A DNA stretch of 64,000 nt from Thermocoleostomius sinensis A174 (GTDB lineage Bacteria > Cyanobacteriota > Cyanobacteriia > Elainellales > Elainellaceae), in assembly GCF_026802175.1 (NCBI RefSeq), contig NZ_CP113797.1, positions 5,743,026-5,807,025 on the forward strand, given 5' to 3'. Below the pieces are notes generated by a model. It did not search any database, was not told the DNA's origin, and saw only the letters and a program-made list of their open reading frames with translations. Below, in pieces: positions 31,954 to 46,405 of the stretch. Every line of letters begins with the position of its first letter. Position 1 is the stretch's first letter. A program made the translations under genes and the position numbers.

Positions 31954-32772
31954 GTGAATAGCAAGGCAGCGATCGACAAAGGTAGAGTCCGGCACGTCGG
32001 ATCACACCGAGATTGGGAGAATTATCGCGACCTCGTGATTGTGCTGCTGCAACGCGAGTTGAAGGTGCGCTACAACAACAAACTACTGGGTTATTTATGG
32101 TCGATTGCCAATCCCCTCACCTCAGCGCTGGTTTATTTTGTGGCGTTTGGATTGATCATGCGCGTGCGAGAGCCAAACTATGTGTTGGTGCTGGTCTCTG
32201 GGCTATTTCCATGGCAGTGGTTTTCTAACTCGGTGGGTTCGGCTCCCAACCTATTTGTGGGCAGTGCCTCGCTGATCAAGAAATTAAATTTTCCCAGAAA
32301 TATTGTGCCGTTGTGCGCTGTGTTGAATCATATGATTCATTACATTGCCTCGGTTCCGGTGATTATCCTGTTTCTGTATATCTATCAGCAGTCGCCTCAT
32401 TGGTCTTGGCTGTATGGGTTTCCAATTTTACTGCTGATTCAGCTTGTTATGGTATACGGCATTGCCTTGGGGCTGTCATCAATCAATTTATTCTTTCGTG
32501 ATCTTGAGCGACTGACCAGCATCATTACGCATTTCTTGTTTTTCTTGACTCCGGTTCTCTACACCCTCGATCGCTTTCCACCGCAATATCACAAGTTGGT
32601 GGTGCTGATGAATCCGGCAGCGGGCTTGATGGTTAACTGGCGACAACTGATCATGGAGGGCACGCTTAACCCATTCTATGTTTTAGTGAGTATGGTCTAT
32701 GCGGCTCTATTTTTTGTCATTGGCTATGCCGTCTATAAGCAGCTTTCCTGGAAATTTGCCGAATTGCTATGA
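31954..32772 (+). CDS. Polysaccharide ABC exporter permease (Wzm/KpsM type)
   Basis: This 272-residue ABC-2 permease exports lipid-linked or capsular polysaccharide with the ATPase encoded next. The N-terminus has the amphipathic DLVIVLLQRELKVRYNNKLLGYLWSIANPL signature of the family. Six membrane helices follow (about 40-60, 70-90, 115-140, 150-170, 180-200, 240-260), with ITHFLFFLTPVLY and LMNPAAGLMVNWRQLI before the last. The start is GTG with a strong GAGAGGAG ribosome site. The stop overlaps the ATPase start by four bases (ATGA). Confidence 0.93.
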   Translation: MNSKAAIDKGRVRHVGSHRDWENYRDLVIVLLQRELKVRYNNKLLGYLWSIANPLTSALVYFVAFGLIMRVREPNYVLVLVSGLFPWQWFSNSVGSAPNLFVGSASLIKKLNFPRNIVPLCAVLNHMIHYIASVPVIILFLYIYQQSPHWSWLYGFPILLLIQLVMVYGIALGLSSINLFFRDLERLTSIITHFLFFLTPVLYTLDRFPPQYHKLVVLMNPAAGLMVNWRQLIMEGTLNPFYVLVSMVYAALFFVIGYAVYKQLSWKFAELL

Positions 32773-33548
32773 GAGATCCCGTTATCAGCTTTCACAACGT
32801 CAGTAAGTCATATCCGCTCTATCGTCGGTTGCGCGGCGTCAAAAACTTTTTCTTCAACTTTGCCACTAGCCTCAAGACCATGAAGGACGATCGCTATGAG
32901 GCCCTGCGGGACATTAATTTTGAAGTGTACGAAGGTGAAAAATTTGGCATTATTGGCCGCAACGGGGCTGGTAAAAGCACCACGCTAGGTCTGATTGCAG
33001 GAGTCCTCAAACCCGATCGCGGTACAGTCATTGTGAGAGGGCGAATTTCGCCGCTGTTGGCATTAGGAGCCGGATTTCACCCAGAGCTAACCGGCCGCGA
33101 AAACATTGTCCTCAATGGCGTGTTGATGGGATTGACCCGTAAAGAAGTGGCACGGAAAATGGAGGAAATTATTGATTTTTCAGAGCTAGGCGAGTTCGTC
33201 GATCGTCCCATCCGAGTTTATTCCAGCGGCATGCTGGCACGGTTGGGCTTTTCGGTAGTGGCACATTTAGACCCAGAAATTTTGCTGATTGATGAAGTGT
33301 TGGGCGTGGGCGATATTCGCTTTCAGCAAAAGTGTCTTAATAAAATGATGAGCTTCAAGGAAAGTGGTGTGACGATGGTCTTAGTCACCCATTCGGTAGC
33401 TAGCGTAGTGAATATCTGCGATCGGGCCATGTGGATTGAAGATCATGTGGTGCGGATGATTGGCGATCCGATCGAAGTAGTGGAAGGCTATTGTGAAGCG
33501 GCTGGTGTTCCCATCAATTTAAGCGCCGTCAATAAATCTGCGTTGTAA
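32769..33548 (+). CDS. Polysaccharide ABC exporter ATPase (Wzt/KpsT type, short)
   Basis: This 259-residue ATPase of the capsule/O-antigen export family has Walker A IIGRNGAGKSTTLGLIAGVLKP, the family's ISPLLALGAGFHPELTGRENIVLNG block, signature VYSSGMLARLGFSV, Walker B PEILLIDEVLGVGD and the switch histidine in LVTHSVASV. It lacks the C-terminal carbohydrate-binding domain of long Wzt proteins, so chain-end recognition is not built in. It is translationally coupled to the permease. With the sulfotransferase and glycosyltransferase downstream, it points to an exported decorated polysaccharide. Confidence 0.94.
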   Translation: MRDPVISFHNVSKSYPLYRRLRGVKNFFFNFATSLKTMKDDRYEALRDINFEVYEGEKFGIIGRNGAGKSTTLGLIAGVLKPDRGTVIVRGRISPLLALGAGFHPELTGRENIVLNGVLMGLTRKEVARKMEEIIDFSELGEFVDRPIRVYSSGMLARLGFSVVAHLDPEILLIDEVLGVGDIRFQQKCLNKMMSFKESGVTMVLVTHSVASVVNICDRAMWIEDHVVRMIGDPIEVVEGYCEAAGVPINLSAVNKSAL

Positions 33549-36581: not shown

Positions 36582-38069
36582 TCACGAAGAAAACGATCGC
36601 CACATCATCCCCACGAACCAGCCCCAACCCAACCCCACCAATGATGTTCCGGTCAAAACGAAAAACGTCTGAACGCGGCTCAAGCTTGTCCGCAACTTTT
36701 CTCCAGCCCCGGCTAAGGTTAACGCACCAATTCCAGCCCAGGCCCAAGCCAACGCGCCTGCCCACGCGCCAGATAAGCTTCCAGTCAACGTTCCTGCCGC
36801 CGCCACCGCCACGGCTACCAAAACCGCAACTGTTAAAGCCCCAGACAACGTCTCCGCCCCTGCACCTACGCTCGCTCCAGCCAAGGCGCCTGCCCATGCC
36901 CCCGTCCACGCACTCGGGCCAGTTTCTGCTACTGAGGTTGTTAGCGAGATGCCAAGTACTGCGTAGCCAGTCAATGCAAAGGACAGCCATTGCCAAGGAA
37001 TGGTTGCTAGCACCGATGGCGAGGGTGTGGTCGGTGCTGGTAGCTGGGATGTTGCTTGCGATCGAACGGATGCACCCAACCGAGTGGCTCGTCTGGAACG
37101 ATTGGCAGTTGTAGAAACCGATGGGATCAGCGGCATTGGGGATGGCACGATAGTGAAGGGATGATTTGGCACCGAATAGGCTGATTGGCTAAATGGGTTT
37201 CTTGCTAGCGCCATCGGTCGGGCGATCGGTTCTTCCAAGAGAATGAGCCACGCCTGCATCGATTGAGGTCGATCGACGGCTCTCAACGCCATCCCTTTCA
37301 AAATCGCGCTATTGACATAATCGCTAATGGCTGAATTGTAATGCTGTGGTGGTTCCAAGGGTGTGCCCACCAAGCGACTGGGGGCCGGTCGCGGCACAAC
37401 CCCGGTCAAAAGACAGTACAGCGTTGCTGCCAAGGCATACACATCGGTATAGGCTCCTCGTTTGGCACGGCGATCGTATTGTTCAATGGGCGAAAACCCC
37501 TCTGTGCGAGATTCTGTGTGGGTCAGGGTCAAACCAGGAATGAATTCGCGGGCCAGCCCAAAATCGATTAACACGGCTTCAGATGTTCCCGTGCGAATCA
37601 TGATGTTTTGCGGCTTCACATCTCGATGCAATAGCTCCAGCGAATGCACAATAGACAACGCTTCTCCGACTTGCCGAATATAATGCAGCGCCTCAGCTTC
37701 CGGCAATTTTCCCCGTCCCAAGCGTTCAGCCAAACTCATGCCCTGCACATATTCCATCACCATGCCATCTACCGTACCTTCGGGCGTCTCTTCGCGAATC
37801 AATTCTCGAACTTGCACTACATGGGGATGCCGACACCGAGCAAGCTTCAATGCTTCGTTGAGAAAATCTTGCTGCAATCGCGTTTGATAGTTTGCCCACT
37901 TTGGATCAAGTCTCAGTTCGTCTTTCAGGGTTTTAATGACTACCCATTCCTCGTTGGGTCTGGTGGGGTGTTGCCTTGCTAGATAAGTAATCCCCGCACC
38001 TCCCCATCCTAGGATGCGATCGATGATGTACTTTCCGCCCTGTAGCTCTTGTCCTGAGTTCCACGCCAT
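36582..38069 (-). CDS. Ser/Thr protein kinase with Ala/Gly-rich membrane tail
   Basis: This 495-residue Hanks-type kinase has its catalytic domain at residues 1-290: glycine loop ILGWGGAGITYLA, lysine in WVVIKTLKD (about 46), HRDVKPQNIM (148-157), DFGLAREF (169-176) and GFSPIEQYD. After a Ser/Thr/Pro linker comes a membrane tail from ~355. One normal helix (WLSFALTGYAVLGISLTTSVA) is followed by ~80 residues almost entirely Ala, Gly, Trp, Leu and Ser in recurring AGALAGA/GAWAGALA patterns, then a last helix (FFVLTGTSLVGLGWGWFVGMMW). ATG 38069 is chosen because the kinase fold begins there; a TTG at 38135 would add 22 residues. It is divergent from dxs. Confidence 0.9.
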   Translation of the reverse strand: MAWNSGQELQGGKYIIDRILGWGGAGITYLARQHPTRPNEEWVVIKTLKDELRLDPKWANYQTRLQQDFLNEALKLARCRHPHVVQVRELIREETPEGTVDGMVMEYVQGMSLAERLGRGKLPEAEALHYIRQVGEALSIVHSLELLHRDVKPQNIMIRTGTSEAVLIDFGLAREFIPGLTLTHTESRTEGFSPIEQYDRRAKRGAYTDVYALAATLYCLLTGVVPRPAPSRLVGTPLEPPQHYNSAISDYVNSAILKGMALRAVDRPQSMQAWLILLEEPIARPMALARNPFSQSAYSVPNHPFTIVPSPMPLIPSVSTTANRSRRATRLGASVRSQATSQLPAPTTPSPSVLATIPWQWLSFALTGYAVLGISLTTSVAETGPSAWTGAWAGALAGASVGAGAETLSGALTVAVLVAVAVAAAGTLTGSLSGAWAGALAWAWAGIGALTLAGAGEKLRTSLSRVQTFFVLTGTSLVGLGWGWFVGMMWRSFSS

Positions 38070-38352
38070 TGCCTTGAATGCTGCAAAACTGGCTTCATTC
38101 TTGCATAAACTCTGCAAATTTCGTAGAGAATGCAACGTTGTTCAATCAGGCTCTATCCTCCGTCCTAATTCTAATGTGCAGTGTCTGCGAGTTTCAGAAT
38201 TAGATAACGATTGCAACAATGGATTAACCTTGACTAAAGCGTTAATTTAGATAAATAAAACCTGCCCCCTGCGATCGGGCGTGTCCCCACAACTTACTAG
38301 AATGAAAAAATAATTAATGGCCGGTTAACATTGCGAGAGGAATTAATTCTAT

Positions 38353-40749: not shown

Positions 40750-41664
40750 ATGAAAGCAATTGAACTTAAGTTTCTGCTCAAGTTGTTGGGTAAGTCAAGT
40801 TATCGTACGGTCATCTCAGAGCTTAAGCCGAGTGAGAAAACTAGTGCGTCAGAACGAAATAAAATTTGTATTGATTTGACCAATCGCGGTATTGTTGCCC
40901 ATTCGCGCAGAGTTGAGAAATTTAAACTCGAGCCGTCAGCTAGAGCATTGCTTGCAGTAGATGCGGCGGAATCTCCCTTGACGGCGGAACAATTGGCTGT
41001 GTTGCGAGCGTGTCAGAAGCAGGCAGCCACGCCTGGAGAGATCAAGAAAGTTGAAGCAGGCGATCGACAACGAGTTATCCAAGATCTGGAAGCCAAGGGT
41101 TTTATTAAGGCAGAAAAAGTTCAGATTCAAGAGGTTTGGTTGACCGATCGAGGTCGAGAATATTTGCGGGAAGAATGTCATGTGAGTGGTACTGCAACCA
41201 TTAGCCTCAACCTGCTGCAAAATTATATGAATTTCTTGCGAAAGGAATTGCACACGGCTTCCAAGGTTGCACCGATTGAATCTTCAGATTCTGCTACTGA
41301 ACTGAATCATGTACATGATACGACTGATTCTTTCAGTGAAGTAACTATATTGAAATCGGTTGAATCATCTGGTGCGATCGATGCAGCAGATAAACCCAGC
41401 GATGCAGAAATTTTACACCTCATTCAAGAATTAGATCGAGAACTGGGAACCGAAAACTATTTACCAATTTTTCACTTGCGGCAGAAACTACAACCGCCAT
41501 TGTCCAGGGAAGAACTTGATCAAGCCTTGTACCGTTTGGAGCGAAACGATCGAATTGAATTAAGTTCATTAGTGGAAGCAATTCGATATACTCCAGAACA
41601 AATTCAAACAGGTATCCCCCAAGAGGCAGGCGGTCCCTTGTTTTTTATAGTGGTCAACAATTGA
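40750..41664 (+). CDS. Multi-winged-helix protein, first gene of the nuclease block
   Basis: This 304-residue soluble protein appears to hold three winged-helix segments. The first (1-70) contains RNKICIDLTNRGIVAHSRRVEKFKL. The second (77-142) contains LTAEQLAVLRACQK, RQRVIQDLEAKGFIK and EVWLTDRGREYLREE. The third (217-290) contains FHLRQKLQPPLSREELDQALYRLERNDRIEL and ends GIPQEAGGPLFFIVVNN. A poorly ordered acidic linker (175-215) joins the last two. No enzymatic motif is visible, so it probably binds DNA or bridges subunits. It precedes the ATPase gene by 83 bases on the same strand. Base composition is clearly AT-richer than dxs. I do not recognise a named family. Confidence 0.72.
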   Translation: MKAIELKFLLKLLGKSSYRTVISELKPSEKTSASERNKICIDLTNRGIVAHSRRVEKFKLEPSARALLAVDAAESPLTAEQLAVLRACQKQAATPGEIKKVEAGDRQRVIQDLEAKGFIKAEKVQIQEVWLTDRGREYLREECHVSGTATISLNLLQNYMNFLRKELHTASKVAPIESSDSATELNHVHDTTDSFSEVTILKSVESSGAIDAADKPSDAEILHLIQELDRELGTENYLPIFHLRQKLQPPLSREELDQALYRLERNDRIELSSLVEAIRYTPEQIQTGIPQEAGGPLFFIVVNN

Positions 41665-41747
41665 GGCTTATAGAGCTTTTAGACCATCAGAAATTTTAGT
41701 GCAAATTTAATCGCAATTGGCATCTAGAGTAACAAAGGCAGTACGTT

Positions 41748-43733
41748 ATGGCATCTATTGACGAAATTATTTTACGTGCAGCAAATCCGTTTGATCCAGT
41801 TACATTTAAAACTGGAAATTTTTGGCAAGAAGATGATTCTAATGGGGAATACCAAACTGTGGAATCTATTCACCAAGAGGCAATCGAGCAAATTACCCAA
41901 ATGCTGGATACAGTTGCAGGCGATCATCGTACCCGCGCTGTCTTGTTGAAAGGCGATGTTGGTTCGGGCAAAAGCTATGTTTTGAGCCGTCTAAAACATT
42001 TGCTAAATTCCAAAGCCTTTTTTGTGTATATTGATCCGTTTAAAGACAGCGAGCATATTTGGCGACATACACTTCGGCGAACTGTTGATAGCTTAATGTA
42101 CAGTCCTGAAGGACAAGCAGAGTCACAGTTAATTCTCTGGCTCAAAAGCCTATCAGTATTTAGAGAACATAGTCTACTAAAAAATATCTTAGGCGAGCGA
42201 AGGCTGTTTGTTAATAACTTTAGAGCTACTTATCCCGTTGGAATTCATCAAGCCAAAGAGTTTTTTAGCGTTTTACATGGACTGACGCAACCTGAGTTAT
42301 ATTCGATCGCCTGTAATTGGCTACAGGGTGAGGATTTAGACGACGAAGATTTAAGAACTTTAGGCATAAGGAAATCAATAGATAGTGAAACGTTTGCCCA
42401 AGGAATTCTATCTAATTTTGGTAGAATTTCTACGTCAACTTACCCAATCGTCCTTTGTTTCGATCAAGTTGAAAGTAAGCTGATGCCGGATGGAACAGCC
42501 GATCTTCAACCAGTTTTTCAGGTCAACACTATCTTTCATACAGAAAGACTTAAAAACTTCTTAATTATTATCAGTGTTGTTAAAAATACTTGGGAAGAGA
42601 ATCGCAAACGCATCCAAGTATCTGATAGGGATAGAATTGAGAAGGAGGTTCTTCTGAATCGGATCAATTTAGATCAAGCAGAGGCAATTTGGGCAAGTCG
42701 GCTTTATCCGCTTCATATTCAAGCTGATCCAAAACCTGCAAATCCCATTTTCCCTCTATCTCGTCAAGAACTGGAGCAGAAAGTCCCAGGTGGAAAAACC
42801 ACGCCAAGAGCAGTGCTGGCAGCGGGGCAGCGTCTATTTTTGAAGTATAAGTCACAGATTGTTGGACATGAAATCCCCCTGCCTGATACAACAGCATCAT
42901 TCAAATTACTATGGGCGAAGGAGTTTAGGAAAACAAAGGAAAAGGTGACTCGCGTTCGTCATTTTTCCTCTCTTGAATTGACCACCATGTTACGGGAAGT
43001 TGTTGCAGTTTTGAATGCAGAGAAGATACAGCCCAAGTTTTTGCCTAGCCCAACCTATTCTAGTTATTCGTTTTCCTATCACCTGCCCGACCAATCTGAA
43101 AAAGTTGGCGTTGTTTGGGCAGAAGAACCAAGCCTGAACAGCTTCTATAACATTATGCATGCTTGTCAAAAAGCTAATGAACGCGGTTTATGTCAGAGGC
43201 TTTATTTACTACGTGCTGAACCCATTGGAGGAAATCGAAATAGAGGCCATCAGCTTTGCAATCAAATTTTTAATGGTTGTCCTCATGTTCGATTAAAACC
43301 TGACCTACACTCAATTCACTACTTGGCAACCTACGATCGTCTAGTCAACTCAGCAAAAGCTCAGGAGCTAGTGCTTAGTGGAAAAGCAATCAATCTCACT
43401 GATCTTGAAGAGTTAGTTCGAGAGTCGGAAGTATTACATGAGTGTCTTCTGTTGCAACAACTTGGTGTCGTTCCTAGAAAGAAAGTTGAGCCTGATCCAA
43501 CTAATTTTTCTCTAGAAGAGGCAAAAGAGTTTCTCTTGAATTTTGTCAAAATTCATCATGTCATTGCTCAGAAAACAGTGACTTGTACTGTGCACAATCA
43601 GTTTTCAGATTTGAACGATCGACAAATTCAAACGGTGATTCATCGTTTATGCCAAGATAAAAAAATTCGGATTCTTGATGAAAATGCTCCAGAGGATGAA
43701 AAAATTATCTGCCTGATTTCTCGAAGTGCTTAA
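41748..43733 (+). CDS. ORC/Cdc6-like AAA ATPase with C-terminal winged helix
   Basis: This 661-residue protein begins NPFDPVTFKTGNFWQED and has Walker A LLKGDVGSGKSYVLSRL (67-83) and Walker B PIVLCFDQVE (233-242). A WLQGEDLDDEDLRTLGIRKSID segment recalls BrxD-like ORC-type ATPases, and KTTPRAVLAAGQRLF (about 350-364) is likely sensor 2. Residues ~385-580 are an alpha/beta region (YSFSYHLPDQSEKVGVVWAEE, QRLYLLRAEPI) I cannot assign. Residues ~585-655 look like a winged helix (NQFSDLNDRQIQTVIHRLCQDKKIRIL). Such ATPases load or signal on DNA. The next gene starts 11 bases after its stop, suggesting one transcript. The gene is AT-rich. Confidence 0.8.
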   Translation: MASIDEIILRAANPFDPVTFKTGNFWQEDDSNGEYQTVESIHQEAIEQITQMLDTVAGDHRTRAVLLKGDVGSGKSYVLSRLKHLLNSKAFFVYIDPFKDSEHIWRHTLRRTVDSLMYSPEGQAESQLILWLKSLSVFREHSLLKNILGERRLFVNNFRATYPVGIHQAKEFFSVLHGLTQPELYSIACNWLQGEDLDDEDLRTLGIRKSIDSETFAQGILSNFGRISTSTYPIVLCFDQVESKLMPDGTADLQPVFQVNTIFHTERLKNFLIIISVVKNTWEENRKRIQVSDRDRIEKEVLLNRINLDQAEAIWASRLYPLHIQADPKPANPIFPLSRQELEQKVPGGKTTPRAVLAAGQRLFLKYKSQIVGHEIPLPDTTASFKLLWAKEFRKTKEKVTRVRHFSSLELTTMLREVVAVLNAEKIQPKFLPSPTYSSYSFSYHLPDQSEKVGVVWAEEPSLNSFYNIMHACQKANERGLCQRLYLLRAEPIGGNRNRGHQLCNQIFNGCPHVRLKPDLHSIHYLATYDRLVNSAKAQELVLSGKAINLTDLEELVRESEVLHECLLLQQLGVVPRKKVEPDPTNFSLEEAKEFLLNFVKIHHVIAQKTVTCTVHNQFSDLNDRQIQTVIHRLCQDKKIRILDENAPEDEKIICLISRSA

Positions 43734-43744
43734 TCAGTAGCTCC

Positions 43745-46405
43745 ATGCCCTATTTAACTACCCCTGCCGACATTCGATCGCTGATTGCCCAACTTACCAC
43801 CTATCCCATCCTTTGGCTAGATACTGAAGTAGCGGATTGGCAAACACCCAACCCCAAGCTATCGCTGATTCAAGTCTTGTTCAATTCAGATGATAGAACT
43901 GGTGAGTTCGCTTATATTTTGGATGTTCTCGATCGTCCTGATTTGATTCAAAACTTTGTTGTTGAAATTATGTGCAATGAAGCGATCGAAAAGGTATTTC
44001 ATAATGCCGCGTACGATTTGAAATTCTTGGGGGGCGATTGGGCACAGAACGTCACCTGCACCTTCAAAATCGTTCGACGAATGTCTAAAAGAAAGTTGGG
44101 TATTTCTAATCGCAAGTTGAAGACCTTAGCTAAAGAACTTTGTCACTTCACGGATATTGACATTGAAGAACAAACCAGCGATTGGGGTCGGCGGCCACTC
44201 AGTCAAAAACAACTGCACTATGCCAGGATGGATACAGTGTATTTGGCGCATGTTCATCAATATTTGCTTCAATTGAATTCACCTAAACCTGCTGTCTTAA
44301 CGCCACCAGATACCGTGAACAAGCCCACTGCCAATCCTTCATCGTTTAGTGTGACCCAAGTGCGAGTCGCGTTTGAATGTGCTCGTTTGTTTTACTTAGG
44401 GCATCACTTTGGCGGGATGACGATGTTTCTGCCGCCAGGGAAAGTATTGGGAATTGGCAGTGCCTTTCATGATTTATCGAATCAATTTGTCAAAACGGCG
44501 CGTCAGGATGCTCAATTTGCCAACTTGTTCAACTCGCCTGTCGATCAACTCAAGGTAGAACCGATCGCTACTCAGATGCAAGCCCTATTCTACGATCGGG
44601 TATTTTTTCCTTACCTACAATCGGTGATCCAAACAGAACCTAGTAGAGCACCGGCACTGCTTCAGCTTTGGAATGGATTGAAAGGCTTGATTCGGCGATG
44701 GGCAACGCTATTAGTCAGCAATCGCCAGGTTTGCAGCGCTGAGGAGGTGATTGAGAAAACCTTTCTGGTGCAAGAACTTAGCGTTCAACATCAGTTTTTG
44801 TTGCCTAACGGAACCCAACAACAAATAAGAGGTCGGTTTGACAGCTTGGTGTATGACTTTGCCAATCATCGCTTGTGTGTGGTTGAATACAAAACCTATC
44901 AATCGCTCGACCAATCGGCTCAACTGGCCCAAGTTGCGCTCTACAGCTATATGTTGCGCGAGAGAATTGGTGTACCGATCGATTCGGCAGTATACACAGC
45001 TTTGCCTGACTGGAAAGAACTCACTTTCACCTGGAATGAGCTAGAAACAACGGTGCATCACCTAATCCCGCACAAGCTTCAACAGATGCAGCAATGGCTC
45101 ACTTGGCAACAAGGACAACCCAACCCCCCGCCCCCCGCCGCGCAAGCTCACCTCTGCGACAGTTGCCCACAACGGCAAAAATGTCAGACCTTTTTCCCAG
45201 ACATCCCCACCAACCGTTCTGTGTATGATTCTGTCTCTAAACCGATCGCTGCGCCACCATCTACCGTAATTCAACCGCCTCGACAGAACCCCATTCAATC
45301 CACGAAATCCCCATCTTCCGTTCCTGAACCTGCTCCATCTAACGAGTCCGATCGCATGGGTGAACGTCTCGTAGAGACGCTGCAATCGTTTGGCATTGAA
45401 ACTGCCTATCAAGGAGCGGCTTTGGCTCCTGCCTTCATTCGCGTTAAACTTAAGCCTAATCCAGGGGTGAAAGTCAACTCAATTCTCCGGCTTTCTGACG
45501 ATCTACGAGTGCAACTTGGGTTGACCTACCCGCCGCTGATTGCCCCACAAGCTGGCTATGTCAGTGTGGATTTGCCCCGTCCCGATCGCCAACTGGCAAC
45601 GTTCGACCGCTACATTCCACTGCAAGCACAACCGGCTACTGCCCCGGTGCAAATTGCGATTGGGGTTGATTTAGAAGGGCAACTGGTGGAAGCCGATTTG
45701 TCTGATCCGAATACCTGTCATTTTCTGGTCGGTGGTACTACGGGTAGCGGCAAAAGCGAGTTTCTTCGATCGCTGCTGCTCAGCTTGCTAGTGCGACATT
45801 CGCCTGATTATCTAAAAATTGGGTTAGTTGATCCAAAACGAGTCACGTTCCCAGAGTTCGAGCAGATTCCCTGGTTGTATACGCCTGTGGTCAAGGATAG
45901 CGATCGGGCGATTGCATTGATGAACGAATTAGTGGCAGAAATGGACAGGCGCTATCAGCAATTTGAACAAGCCAAATGTCCCGATCTGGCAACCTACAAT
46001 CAGCATCAAGCCCCCATGCCTCGCATCGTTTGCATTTTTGACGAATACGCCGACTTTATGGCTGAGAAAGAAACACGATCGGCCTTGGAACTGAACATTA
46101 AGCGCTTAGGAGCAATGGCCAGAGCGGCTGGCATTCATCTAATTATTGCTACCCAGCGCCCAGAAGCTAAAGTCGTGACTCCTTTAATTCGATCGAACTT
46201 ACCTGGACGAGTTGCGCTCAGAACCGCCAGCGAAGCTGATTCTGCAATTATTCTGGGTGGAAGACAGATCGAAGCAGCCTATCTGTTGGGAAAGGGAGAT
46301 TTACTCTACCAAGCCGGAGCGCACTTACTGCGGCTACAAAGCCTGTTTGCACCTAGCATGGATGACACATTGTCCCAACTAATTGCCCCTCGTTCTTCTT
46401 CCTGA
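43745..46405 (+). CDS. Triple fusion: DEDDy exonuclease, Cas4/RecB-like nuclease and FtsK-type DNA translocase
   Basis: This 886-residue protein has three domains. Residues 1-175 are RNase D-like: Exo I D26/E28 (LDTEVA), Exo II D91 (HNAAYDLKFL), Exo III Y159-x3-D163 (HYARMDTVYL), all DEDDy residues present. Residues 200-485 are a PD-(D/E)XK nuclease of the Cas4/RecB/Dna2 kind: H242, D366 (RGRFD), E381/K383 (VVEYKT), Q396-x3-Y400, and four cysteines C212, C471, C474, C480 placed for an Fe-S cluster. A proline-rich linker (490-535) leads to an FtsK alpha/beta motor: Walker A GGTTGSGKS (663-671), Walker B VCIFDEYADF (D766, E767), ATQRP. There is no membrane part and no gamma domain. Composition is more host-like than the two genes before it. 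Confidence 0.88.
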   Translation: MPYLTTPADIRSLIAQLTTYPILWLDTEVADWQTPNPKLSLIQVLFNSDDRTGEFAYILDVLDRPDLIQNFVVEIMCNEAIEKVFHNAAYDLKFLGGDWAQNVTCTFKIVRRMSKRKLGISNRKLKTLAKELCHFTDIDIEEQTSDWGRRPLSQKQLHYARMDTVYLAHVHQYLLQLNSPKPAVLTPPDTVNKPTANPSSFSVTQVRVAFECARLFYLGHHFGGMTMFLPPGKVLGIGSAFHDLSNQFVKTARQDAQFANLFNSPVDQLKVEPIATQMQALFYDRVFFPYLQSVIQTEPSRAPALLQLWNGLKGLIRRWATLLVSNRQVCSAEEVIEKTFLVQELSVQHQFLLPNGTQQQIRGRFDSLVYDFANHRLCVVEYKTYQSLDQSAQLAQVALYSYMLRERIGVPIDSAVYTALPDWKELTFTWNELETTVHHLIPHKLQQMQQWLTWQQGQPNPPPPAAQAHLCDSCPQRQKCQTFFPDIPTNRSVYDSVSKPIAAPPSTVIQPPRQNPIQSTKSPSSVPEPAPSNESDRMGERLVETLQSFGIETAYQGAALAPAFIRVKLKPNPGVKVNSILRLSDDLRVQLGLTYPPLIAPQAGYVSVDLPRPDRQLATFDRYIPLQAQPATAPVQIAIGVDLEGQLVEADLSDPNTCHFLVGGTTGSGKSEFLRSLLLSLLVRHSPDYLKIGLVDPKRVTFPEFEQIPWLYTPVVKDSDRAIALMNELVAEMDRRYQQFEQAKCPDLATYNQHQAPMPRIVCIFDEYADFMAEKETRSALELNIKRLGAMARAAGIHLIIATQRPEAKVVTPLIRSNLPGRVALRTASEADSAIILGGRQIEAAYLLGKGDLLYQAGAHLLRLQSLFAPSMDDTLSQLIAPRSSS

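Follow-up and report, generated by a model that had tools for sequence, protein, structure and literature searches.

The closest described relatives of the locus analysed here are the Orc/CDC6-coupled 'HerA/FtsK capture' counter-invader systems predicted by Rakesh, Aravind and Krishnan (NAR 2024; PMC10853773), who proposed from sequence and structure analysis that such operons intercept invading DNA; we found no test of these operons in the text of that paper. As its text describes it, the class comprises an Orc/CDC6 ATPase with an inactive restriction endonuclease (iREase) between the AAA+ and C-terminal winged helix–turn–helix (wHTH) domains, a separate fast-evolving multi-wHTH protein, an active restriction endonuclease (REase) from either of two families and FtsK with FtsK-alpha, and in some cases a 3'–5' exonuclease fused to FtsK. 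We have studied a stretch of 64,000 nt (the window) of the Thermocoleostomius sinensis A174 genome (a single contig, 5.81 Mb), in which three ORFs, G1, G2 and G3 (304, 661 and 886 aa), lie on the + strand with gaps of 83 bases (G1–G2) and 11 bases (G2–G3). This operon is a real, conserved and well-formed cyanobacterial member of the predicted class: it has an Orc/CDC6-type AAA+ ATPase, a PD-(D/E)XK nuclease with conserved catalytic residues, and FtsK with FtsK-alpha. A preliminary description of the window had given the same outer coordinates, G3 length and 11-base gap, which were confirmed, and had called the block possibly undescribed, which does not hold since the class, including exonuclease–FtsK fusions, had already been predicted in the text cited above. 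We consider it moderately probable that the three genes constitute one DNA-degrading machine directed against invading dsDNA (plasmids, phages, transferred DNA). What the locus and its relatives add to the text of PMC10853773 is the four-cysteine Cas4-like nuclease, the occurrence in cyanobacteria, a Gln or Asn after the Walker-B Asp, variants without the exonuclease, and the decay of the module, or its displacement, at a single chromosomal site next to ParA; in the main text of that paper (Figure 7 and the supplement lying outside this count) 'cyanobacteri' and 'Cas4' occur 0 times.

Among other systems, SspFGH and DUF4297–HerA are described as experimentally shown analogues (PMC8092258, PMC11291478). 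SspFGH, in the published account, is likewise a three-gene block with one Walker-A ATPase and an FtsK-like C-terminus in the third protein, and SspH is the best PADLOC match of the G3 motor (6e-67); SspH models, however, are 1255–1766 positions long, and no link to phosphorothioation was found in the single-contig window genome, which has no match to DndC (TIGR03183, 0 matches at E≤0.001; SspD was not searched for). PADLOC listed no SspF or SspG model for G1 or G2 up to E=1, the presence of these models in the library being unconfirmed. DndFGH, as outlined in PMC10853773, is also a translocase–nuclease restriction module, in which DndG is a multi-wHTH subunit and DndH carries an FtsK/HerA domain, but it has a type-II-like REase in place of the Cas4/RecB-type nuclease found here, and differs again by the DndC that the window genome lacks; the DndF match of G2 is marginal (0.0071, PADLOC). 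HerA–NurA and DUF4297–HerA resemble the module in that an FtsK/HerA-superfamily ring motor works with a nuclease. In HerA–NurA, to our knowledge, motor and nuclease are separate proteins, without an ORC-like loader or a DEDDy domain. The DUF4297–HerA complex, reported to be able to block phage, differs from the module in the same respects (PMC11291478). UvrD–Cas4-like fusions (pfam12705), for which a defence role has been argued, carry the same nuclease superfamily on a DNA motor that is an SF1 helicase instead of an FtsK ring (PMC5704561). Further, a Cas4-like nuclease of Synechococcus elongatus is reported to lower RSF1010 plasmid transfer or maintenance (PMC10653904), NrnC-like diDNases are described as tied to defence genes in Gram-positive bacteria (PMC11706625), and FtsK domains are mentioned in the text of PMC7159879 only as predicted inactive effectors of other systems.

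The fusion protein G3 (43745–46405; ORF, Pfam and alignment) begins with a DEDDy 3'–5' exonuclease (residues 4–175, 43754–44269; DNA_pol_A_exo1, 1.5e-26), assigned by Pfam, alignment and profile search against solved structures, where its nearest chains are 'ancestor of diDNase' (7.4e-17) and nanoRNase C (5.6e-15). There follow, by Pfam and alignment, a RecB/Cas4-type PD-(D/E)XK nuclease (residues 200–481, including C212, 44342–45187; PDDEXK_1, 2.5e-13); by Pfam, FtsK-alpha (PF17854, residues 530–611, 45332–45577, 1.3e-9); and, by Pfam, alignment and profile search against solved structures, the FtsK/SpoIIIE motor (residues ~628–870, 45626–46354; PF01580 at 628–806, 5e-40), the latter two Pfam matches both above cut-off. 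Since both Cas4 models missed their curated cut-offs (PF01930, 18.1 against 22.7 bits; TIGR00372, 29.5 against 65 bits), we call the nuclease Cas4-like and not Cas4. The active sites are conserved: in 35 aligned fusions, picked for full length (800–940 aa), every residue named in the preliminary description is invariant, namely D26, E28, D91, Y159 and D163 of the exonuclease, C212, H242, D366, E381, K383, Q396, Y400, C471, C474 and C480 of the nuclease, and Walker A K670 and Walker B D766–E767 of the motor; in locus L104, outside this set, E381 is replaced by Asp. The four invariant cysteines may bind an Fe–S cluster, to judge from their sequence.

G3 has neither the N-terminal membrane domain nor the C-terminal gamma domain that are hallmarks of classical FtsK/SpoIIIE proteins, as had been proposed: no membrane segment was found (top 19-residue Kyte–Doolittle mean 1.03), and the gamma (KOPS-reading) family is missing among the 8 Pfam families listed for G3 up to E=1. 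The nearest solved structure of the motor is cellular FtsK (2iuu, 2.8e-62), and no second FtsK_SpoIIIE protein was found in the window genome, so that a classical chromosome translocase is apparently absent. These latter observations favour the main rival to an anti-invader role, a chromosomal end-processing or segregation machine analogous to archaeal HerA–NurA, in which FtsK would pull broken or entangled chromosomal DNA, the nucleases would resect or clear it, and G2/G1 would load it at particular sites. Such a machine would be useful to polyploid cyanobacteria without a classical FtsK; the missing KOPS-reading and membrane parts speak against it, and on all the evidence we regard it as rather unlikely.

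G2 (41748–43733; ORF, predicted structure and fold search) was proposed in the preliminary description to be ORC/Cdc6-like, and by its predicted fold it is (pLDDT 88.9, pTM 0.89; AAA+ at residues ~1–375): the top matches in a fold search are Drosophila Cdc6 (Z 14.4) and Pyrobaculum Cdc6 (Z 14.2), lower matches include RdrA (12.8) and the BREX ATPase BrxC (11.4–11.6), and the top Foldseek match is Cdc6 (4.6e-5). Pfam returned general AAA/KAP models alone, and these weakly, with a BrxC_BrxD match below cut-off, and nothing convincing emerged from a sequence profile run against solved structures (best RAD24, E 0.0089). Walker A K75 is present in 103/103 G2 proteins of known arrangement (3 more, at contig ends, left out). 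ORC-type ATPases usually have a catalytic Glu after the Walker-B Asp; at position 240 of G2, next to D239, 102 of the 103 proteins have Gln or Asn and 1 has His, and a distant G2' family (see below) has Glu there (consensus FDEL). Downstream of the AAA+ region, residues ~400–545 (42945–43382) appear REase-like from the element order in the model and from sequence inspection, residues 408–537 having such an order of helices and strands and no ExK motif, and a winged-helix-like C-terminal domain, its fold tentatively assigned from the model, occupies residues ~580–661 (43485–43730). The fold searches gave no resolved match for either part; judging from the model, the REase-like part is probably an inactive REase ahead of a C-terminal wHTH.

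G1 (40750–41664; ORF, predicted structure and fold search) consists of winged helices (residues ~1–148), a flexible linker and a conserved C-terminal domain (~217–304), with a model (pLDDT 87.8, pTM 0.56) that leaves the domain arrangement uncertain. Residues 1–146 match MarR-type winged helices (Z 8.5–10.9 among the 50 matches listed), and the C-terminal helix–helix–helix–strand domain looks winged-helix-like in the model; the wHTH-family sequence matches in Pfam all lie below cut-off, and the sequence profile found nothing convincing among solved structures. G1 is the likely DNA-recognition partner.

That the three genes travel together, a point that the preliminary description had set for checking, is borne out by a G2-profile scan of genome contigs, from which the best 80 of 257 relatives gave 78 distinct named loci, all 78 cyanobacterial by record title (an earlier collection overlaps this set in part, several contigs being common to both, and the two were not summed). 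The order and strand of G1, G2 and G3 recur across Cyanobacteria, and we therefore take the gene set to be more than chance. In 50/78 named loci G2 is followed, as the next gene of the module, by one of the G3 type, with all three domains in one ORF in 41 (some cut by the stretch end), no exonuclease in 5, a contig end before the motor in 2 and an interruption in 2; the remaining 28 have G1–G2 or tandem G2 copies. Of the 21 triplets whose spacing was measured, most have short intergenic gaps, though a gap can reach 680 bases. G2 and G3 have diverged together, their distances being correlated with r 0.80 (n=47; the top of 999 permutations was 0.38). Over the 47 triplets the G3 interdomain linker is least alike (0.16) and the motor most (0.76), and the most divergent structured parts are the G2 C-terminal domain (0.43), the G2 REase-like part (0.55) and the N-terminal part of G1 (0.55). 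Neither outcome named beforehand as telling against the block was seen: many genomes have no such fusion, and the three genes are found together in other loci.

Considering these data, we suggest that G2 and G1 would assemble into an ATP-controlled platform that recognizes and encircles target DNA and hands it to G3, whose FtsK ring would then pump the duplex past the Cas4-like nuclease, which would cut it, and past the DEDDy exonuclease, by which 3' ends would be trimmed or short products cleared. The earlier idea of a motor feeding two nucleases is consistent with this domain content as read from sequence; the formation of a complex, the recognition of a target, this order of events and the anti-invader role are what we infer. 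We base the anti-invader interpretation on the composition of the module, its patchiness, its repeated decay, its plasmid copy, the appearance of the ATPase pair with further nucleases, and the case made for the class in print. We also count in its favour the invariant active sites, the linkage and joint divergence of G2 and G3, the low GC content of G1 and G2 (given below), the phage block by DUF4297–HerA, and locus L081 (7924–15872). There the Cas4 domain within the fusion is without H242, D366, K383 and Y400, the fusion has acquired a protein kinase domain (Pkinase, 1.5e-34), and a Cas4-like gene of its own, with E381D, stands ahead of G1.

Recurrent neighbour clusters were defined as those present in 5 or more of the 78 loci; ParA and 8 others were typed by Pfam (two glycosyltransferases, IleRS, an SDH-type proteinase, HHL1-like, ParB-like and two without a match), and no methylase is among the typed ones (5 more clusters being named by eye or not at all). 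Since no modification gene was seen to travel with the module, self and non-self may be told apart by the state of the DNA, by its sequence or by how it replicates; a methylase encoded elsewhere in the genome may also provide a mark, and N6 methylases are encoded elsewhere in the window genome. That no modification enzyme was found among the typed neighbours would also agree with an abortive or suicide system, in which the triggered machine degrades the host chromosome too, and there is precedent in that SspFGH and DndFGH, with FtsK-like motors, are reported to damage host DNA when unrestrained (PMC8092258) and DUF4297–HerA is described as a promiscuous dsDNase (PMC11291478). On the other hand, a toxin-like fourth gene common to all contexts was not found (judged by eye, with Pfam for part of the clusters), and nothing separates abortive from selective degradation; we hold the abortive interpretation to be very unlikely.

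The distribution of the module is patchy. At E<1e-100, G2 relatives occur in 33/292 genomes of the phylum (its own genome included), and at E≤1e-3 in 60/292; G3 with Cas4 and motor is found in 3/35 same-family genomes and 3/24 other genomes. One module copy lies on the conjugative plasmid pPSE7367.01 of Pseudanabaena sp. PCC 7367, and G2 was found in 1/72,556 plasmid records. A ParA gene (<400 aa) lies ≤5 kb downstream in about 24/42 named loci having enough downstream sequence (2 or 3 of the 24, L119, L166 and L169, may be other or cut ParA forms). Twenty ParA-anchored stretches were taken; ParA adjoins a complete module in 3 of them and does not in the other 17. An endonuclease–ParA/ParB pair adjoins ParA in 6 of the 17 (L203, L205, L207, L208, L211, L219), and remnants persist: L207 and L208 keep a C-terminal FtsK piece of G3, L219 keeps G1, and L213, another of the 17, has a lone exonuclease-less G3. 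These remnants imply that, in at least some lineages, the module once occupied the ParA site before its loss or displacement. (The FtsK pieces of L207 and L208 are small ORFs for which an exonuclease identity was considered and rejected.) ParA was rejected as a functional fourth gene, the window genome being without such a ParA (E 1e-70) and 18/42 loci having none ≤5 kb.

This neighbourhood of a ParA-type gene counts in favour of the end-processing proposal. Against that proposal, G2 is missing from most sampled genomes of the phylum, the window genome has the module and not the ParA, and a copy sits on a conjugative plasmid. The plasmid copy agrees with a third alternative, that the module is cargo or a remnant of an integrative or conjugative element, FtsK moving DNA between cells and the nucleases processing it. 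This alternative is also favoured by the low GC content of G1 and G2 (0.434 and 0.402, against an ORF 5th percentile of 0.456) and by window flanks that are not common to any of 3 same-family relatives (8–20 kb examined); together with the missing ParA, and with the qualification that G3 is not GC-poor, this suggests a local gain in the window genome. Against a mobile-element function stand the single hit among plasmid records, the absence of mobility families (relaxase, integrase, transposase) from the 25 commonest Pfam families in a set of 144 neighbours (136 others lying further down the list), the absence of any tRNA from the window, and the recurrent place beside ParA in Nostocales and others; the chance that this alternative is correct seems slim.

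The anti-invader interpretation must itself be set against a number of observations. No experiment on this fusion was found in the literature searched. The GC content of G3 (0.485) is not low. In one genus G3 is present in 14/16 species, in all 14 ≤0.5 kb from the same ParA gene (13 match both ends; 1 is without the exonuclease and carries a stop), and this near-fixed G3 is more like a lineage core gene. Trees cluster by order beyond chance, so that much of the inheritance looks vertical, and both this and the ParA association of the genus are points in favour of end-processing. Phage records and viral contigs yielded no G2 relatives (phage matches to G3, among the best 10 of 187, fall on the FtsK part). 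The expectation that the block would sit beside known defence genes found no clear support: neighbour scans covered 144/205 neighbours from 26 chosen loci (17/26 loci represented), and PADLOC gave no clear defence enrichment among the most-matched families listed; there being no control set, this does not amount to a measurement of absence. For the 144 neighbours, each of the top 25 PADLOC families by number of matches (PD-T4-6, mad6, MkoA) had 3 members, probably the three protein kinases seen by Pfam, and 88 more families follow below these. In the window, 10 neighbours gave one PADLOC match at E≤1e-10, mad3 (5e-18), for a 259-aa protein at 32769–33548. Among the 144 neighbours Pfam also recognized Uma2, a 'putative restriction endonuclease', in 5 and a C-5 cytosine methylase in 2. 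The window further contains a Ser/Thr kinase gene at 36582–38135.

Natural variants of G3 occur. Among exonuclease-less proteins 11/13 listed keep all checked Cas4 and motor residues (L128 and L132 are interrupted), and the DEDDy residues are kept in 8/8 listed exonuclease-only proteins. Stand-alone relatives of the exonuclease, of ~310 aa, are found in L106, L111, L112 and L125 (DEDDy intact) and in one genus. In L213 (12226–14292) a lone exonuclease-less G3 lies close to ParA, neither G1 nor G2 being visible in the stretch, adjoining what by eye is an efflux-transporter-like gene.

The ATPase appears in other operons also, and sister operons mentioned in PMC10853773 (with a second Orc/CDC6 copy, or an REase partner) resemble variants found here. 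In the G1–G2a–G2b arrangement the first and second copies fall into different clades of 22 and 20 rows in a FastTree tree (support 100; long branches flagged), and both tandem copies keep Walker A and D239, then Gln or Asn; a specially disrupted second copy, as in the 'second Orc/CDC6 with disrupted Walker B' of PMC10853773, was considered and rejected, the two copies being alike. Such tandem ATPases stand behind G1 in L105–L108, L110–L113, L116, L125, L136, L142, L145, L153, L158 and L164, near a G1–G2–G3 module in L108, L110, L116 and L136, where the stretch ends within G3 in L108 and L110 and G3 has no exonuclease in L136. A fusion of an HSDR_N endonuclease to ParA with a ParB-like gene follows the tandem block in 8/19 loci having ≥3 kb downstream (one of the 19, L132, being really a broken single G2). 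This pair (~490 and ~260 aa) lies beside the module or in its place in L105–L108, L110–L112 and L125, and also in L161, L165, L203, L205, L207, L208, L211 and L219, and the N-terminal part of the fusion occurs in 22/146 genomes at E<1e-30. Mutual exclusion of module and pair was considered and not upheld: the genome comparison gives both in genome G125 only, yet several named loci hold both. More distantly, a G1'–G2' pair (profile E 1.5e-10 for G1, 9.4e-26 for G2) lies ahead of a DUF1802 protein whose C-terminal part has a GGxD...ECK nuclease motif (L182–L189, L194, L195), from which we conclude that other nucleases have been combined with the ATPase/wHTH pair; alongside it we cite L190–L193, where an ~800-aa ORC-like ATPase related to G2 (profile E 2.7e-19) carries an N-terminal DEDDh exonuclease (Pfam on L193 only). 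Several flanking clusters are common to the G1'–G2'–DUF1802 loci L183, L184, L186, L187 and L188.

Finally, returning to the machine against invading DNA, we put forward as speculative, and on balance unlikely, a form of recognition needing no mark, in which a cyanobacterial ORC platform, naturally slowed in hydrolysis by the Gln or Asn that replaces the catalytic Glu, would clamp DNA whose replication or partition is in an unusual state and would activate the Cas4-plus-DEDDy motor, the ParA site acting as a checkpoint. If this were true, the home beside ParA and the displacement by an endonuclease–ParA/ParB pair would point to a chromosomal checkpoint against foreign replicons. As a compact operon with intact active sites in cultured organisms, the module offers a place to test a predicted defence class, for which the natural variants (without exonuclease, or with the nuclease in trans) would be useful. 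If DNA is restricted without a modification enzyme, how the host chromosome is spared becomes a concrete question, and the module may be one obstacle to the genetic manipulation of filamentous cyanobacteria.

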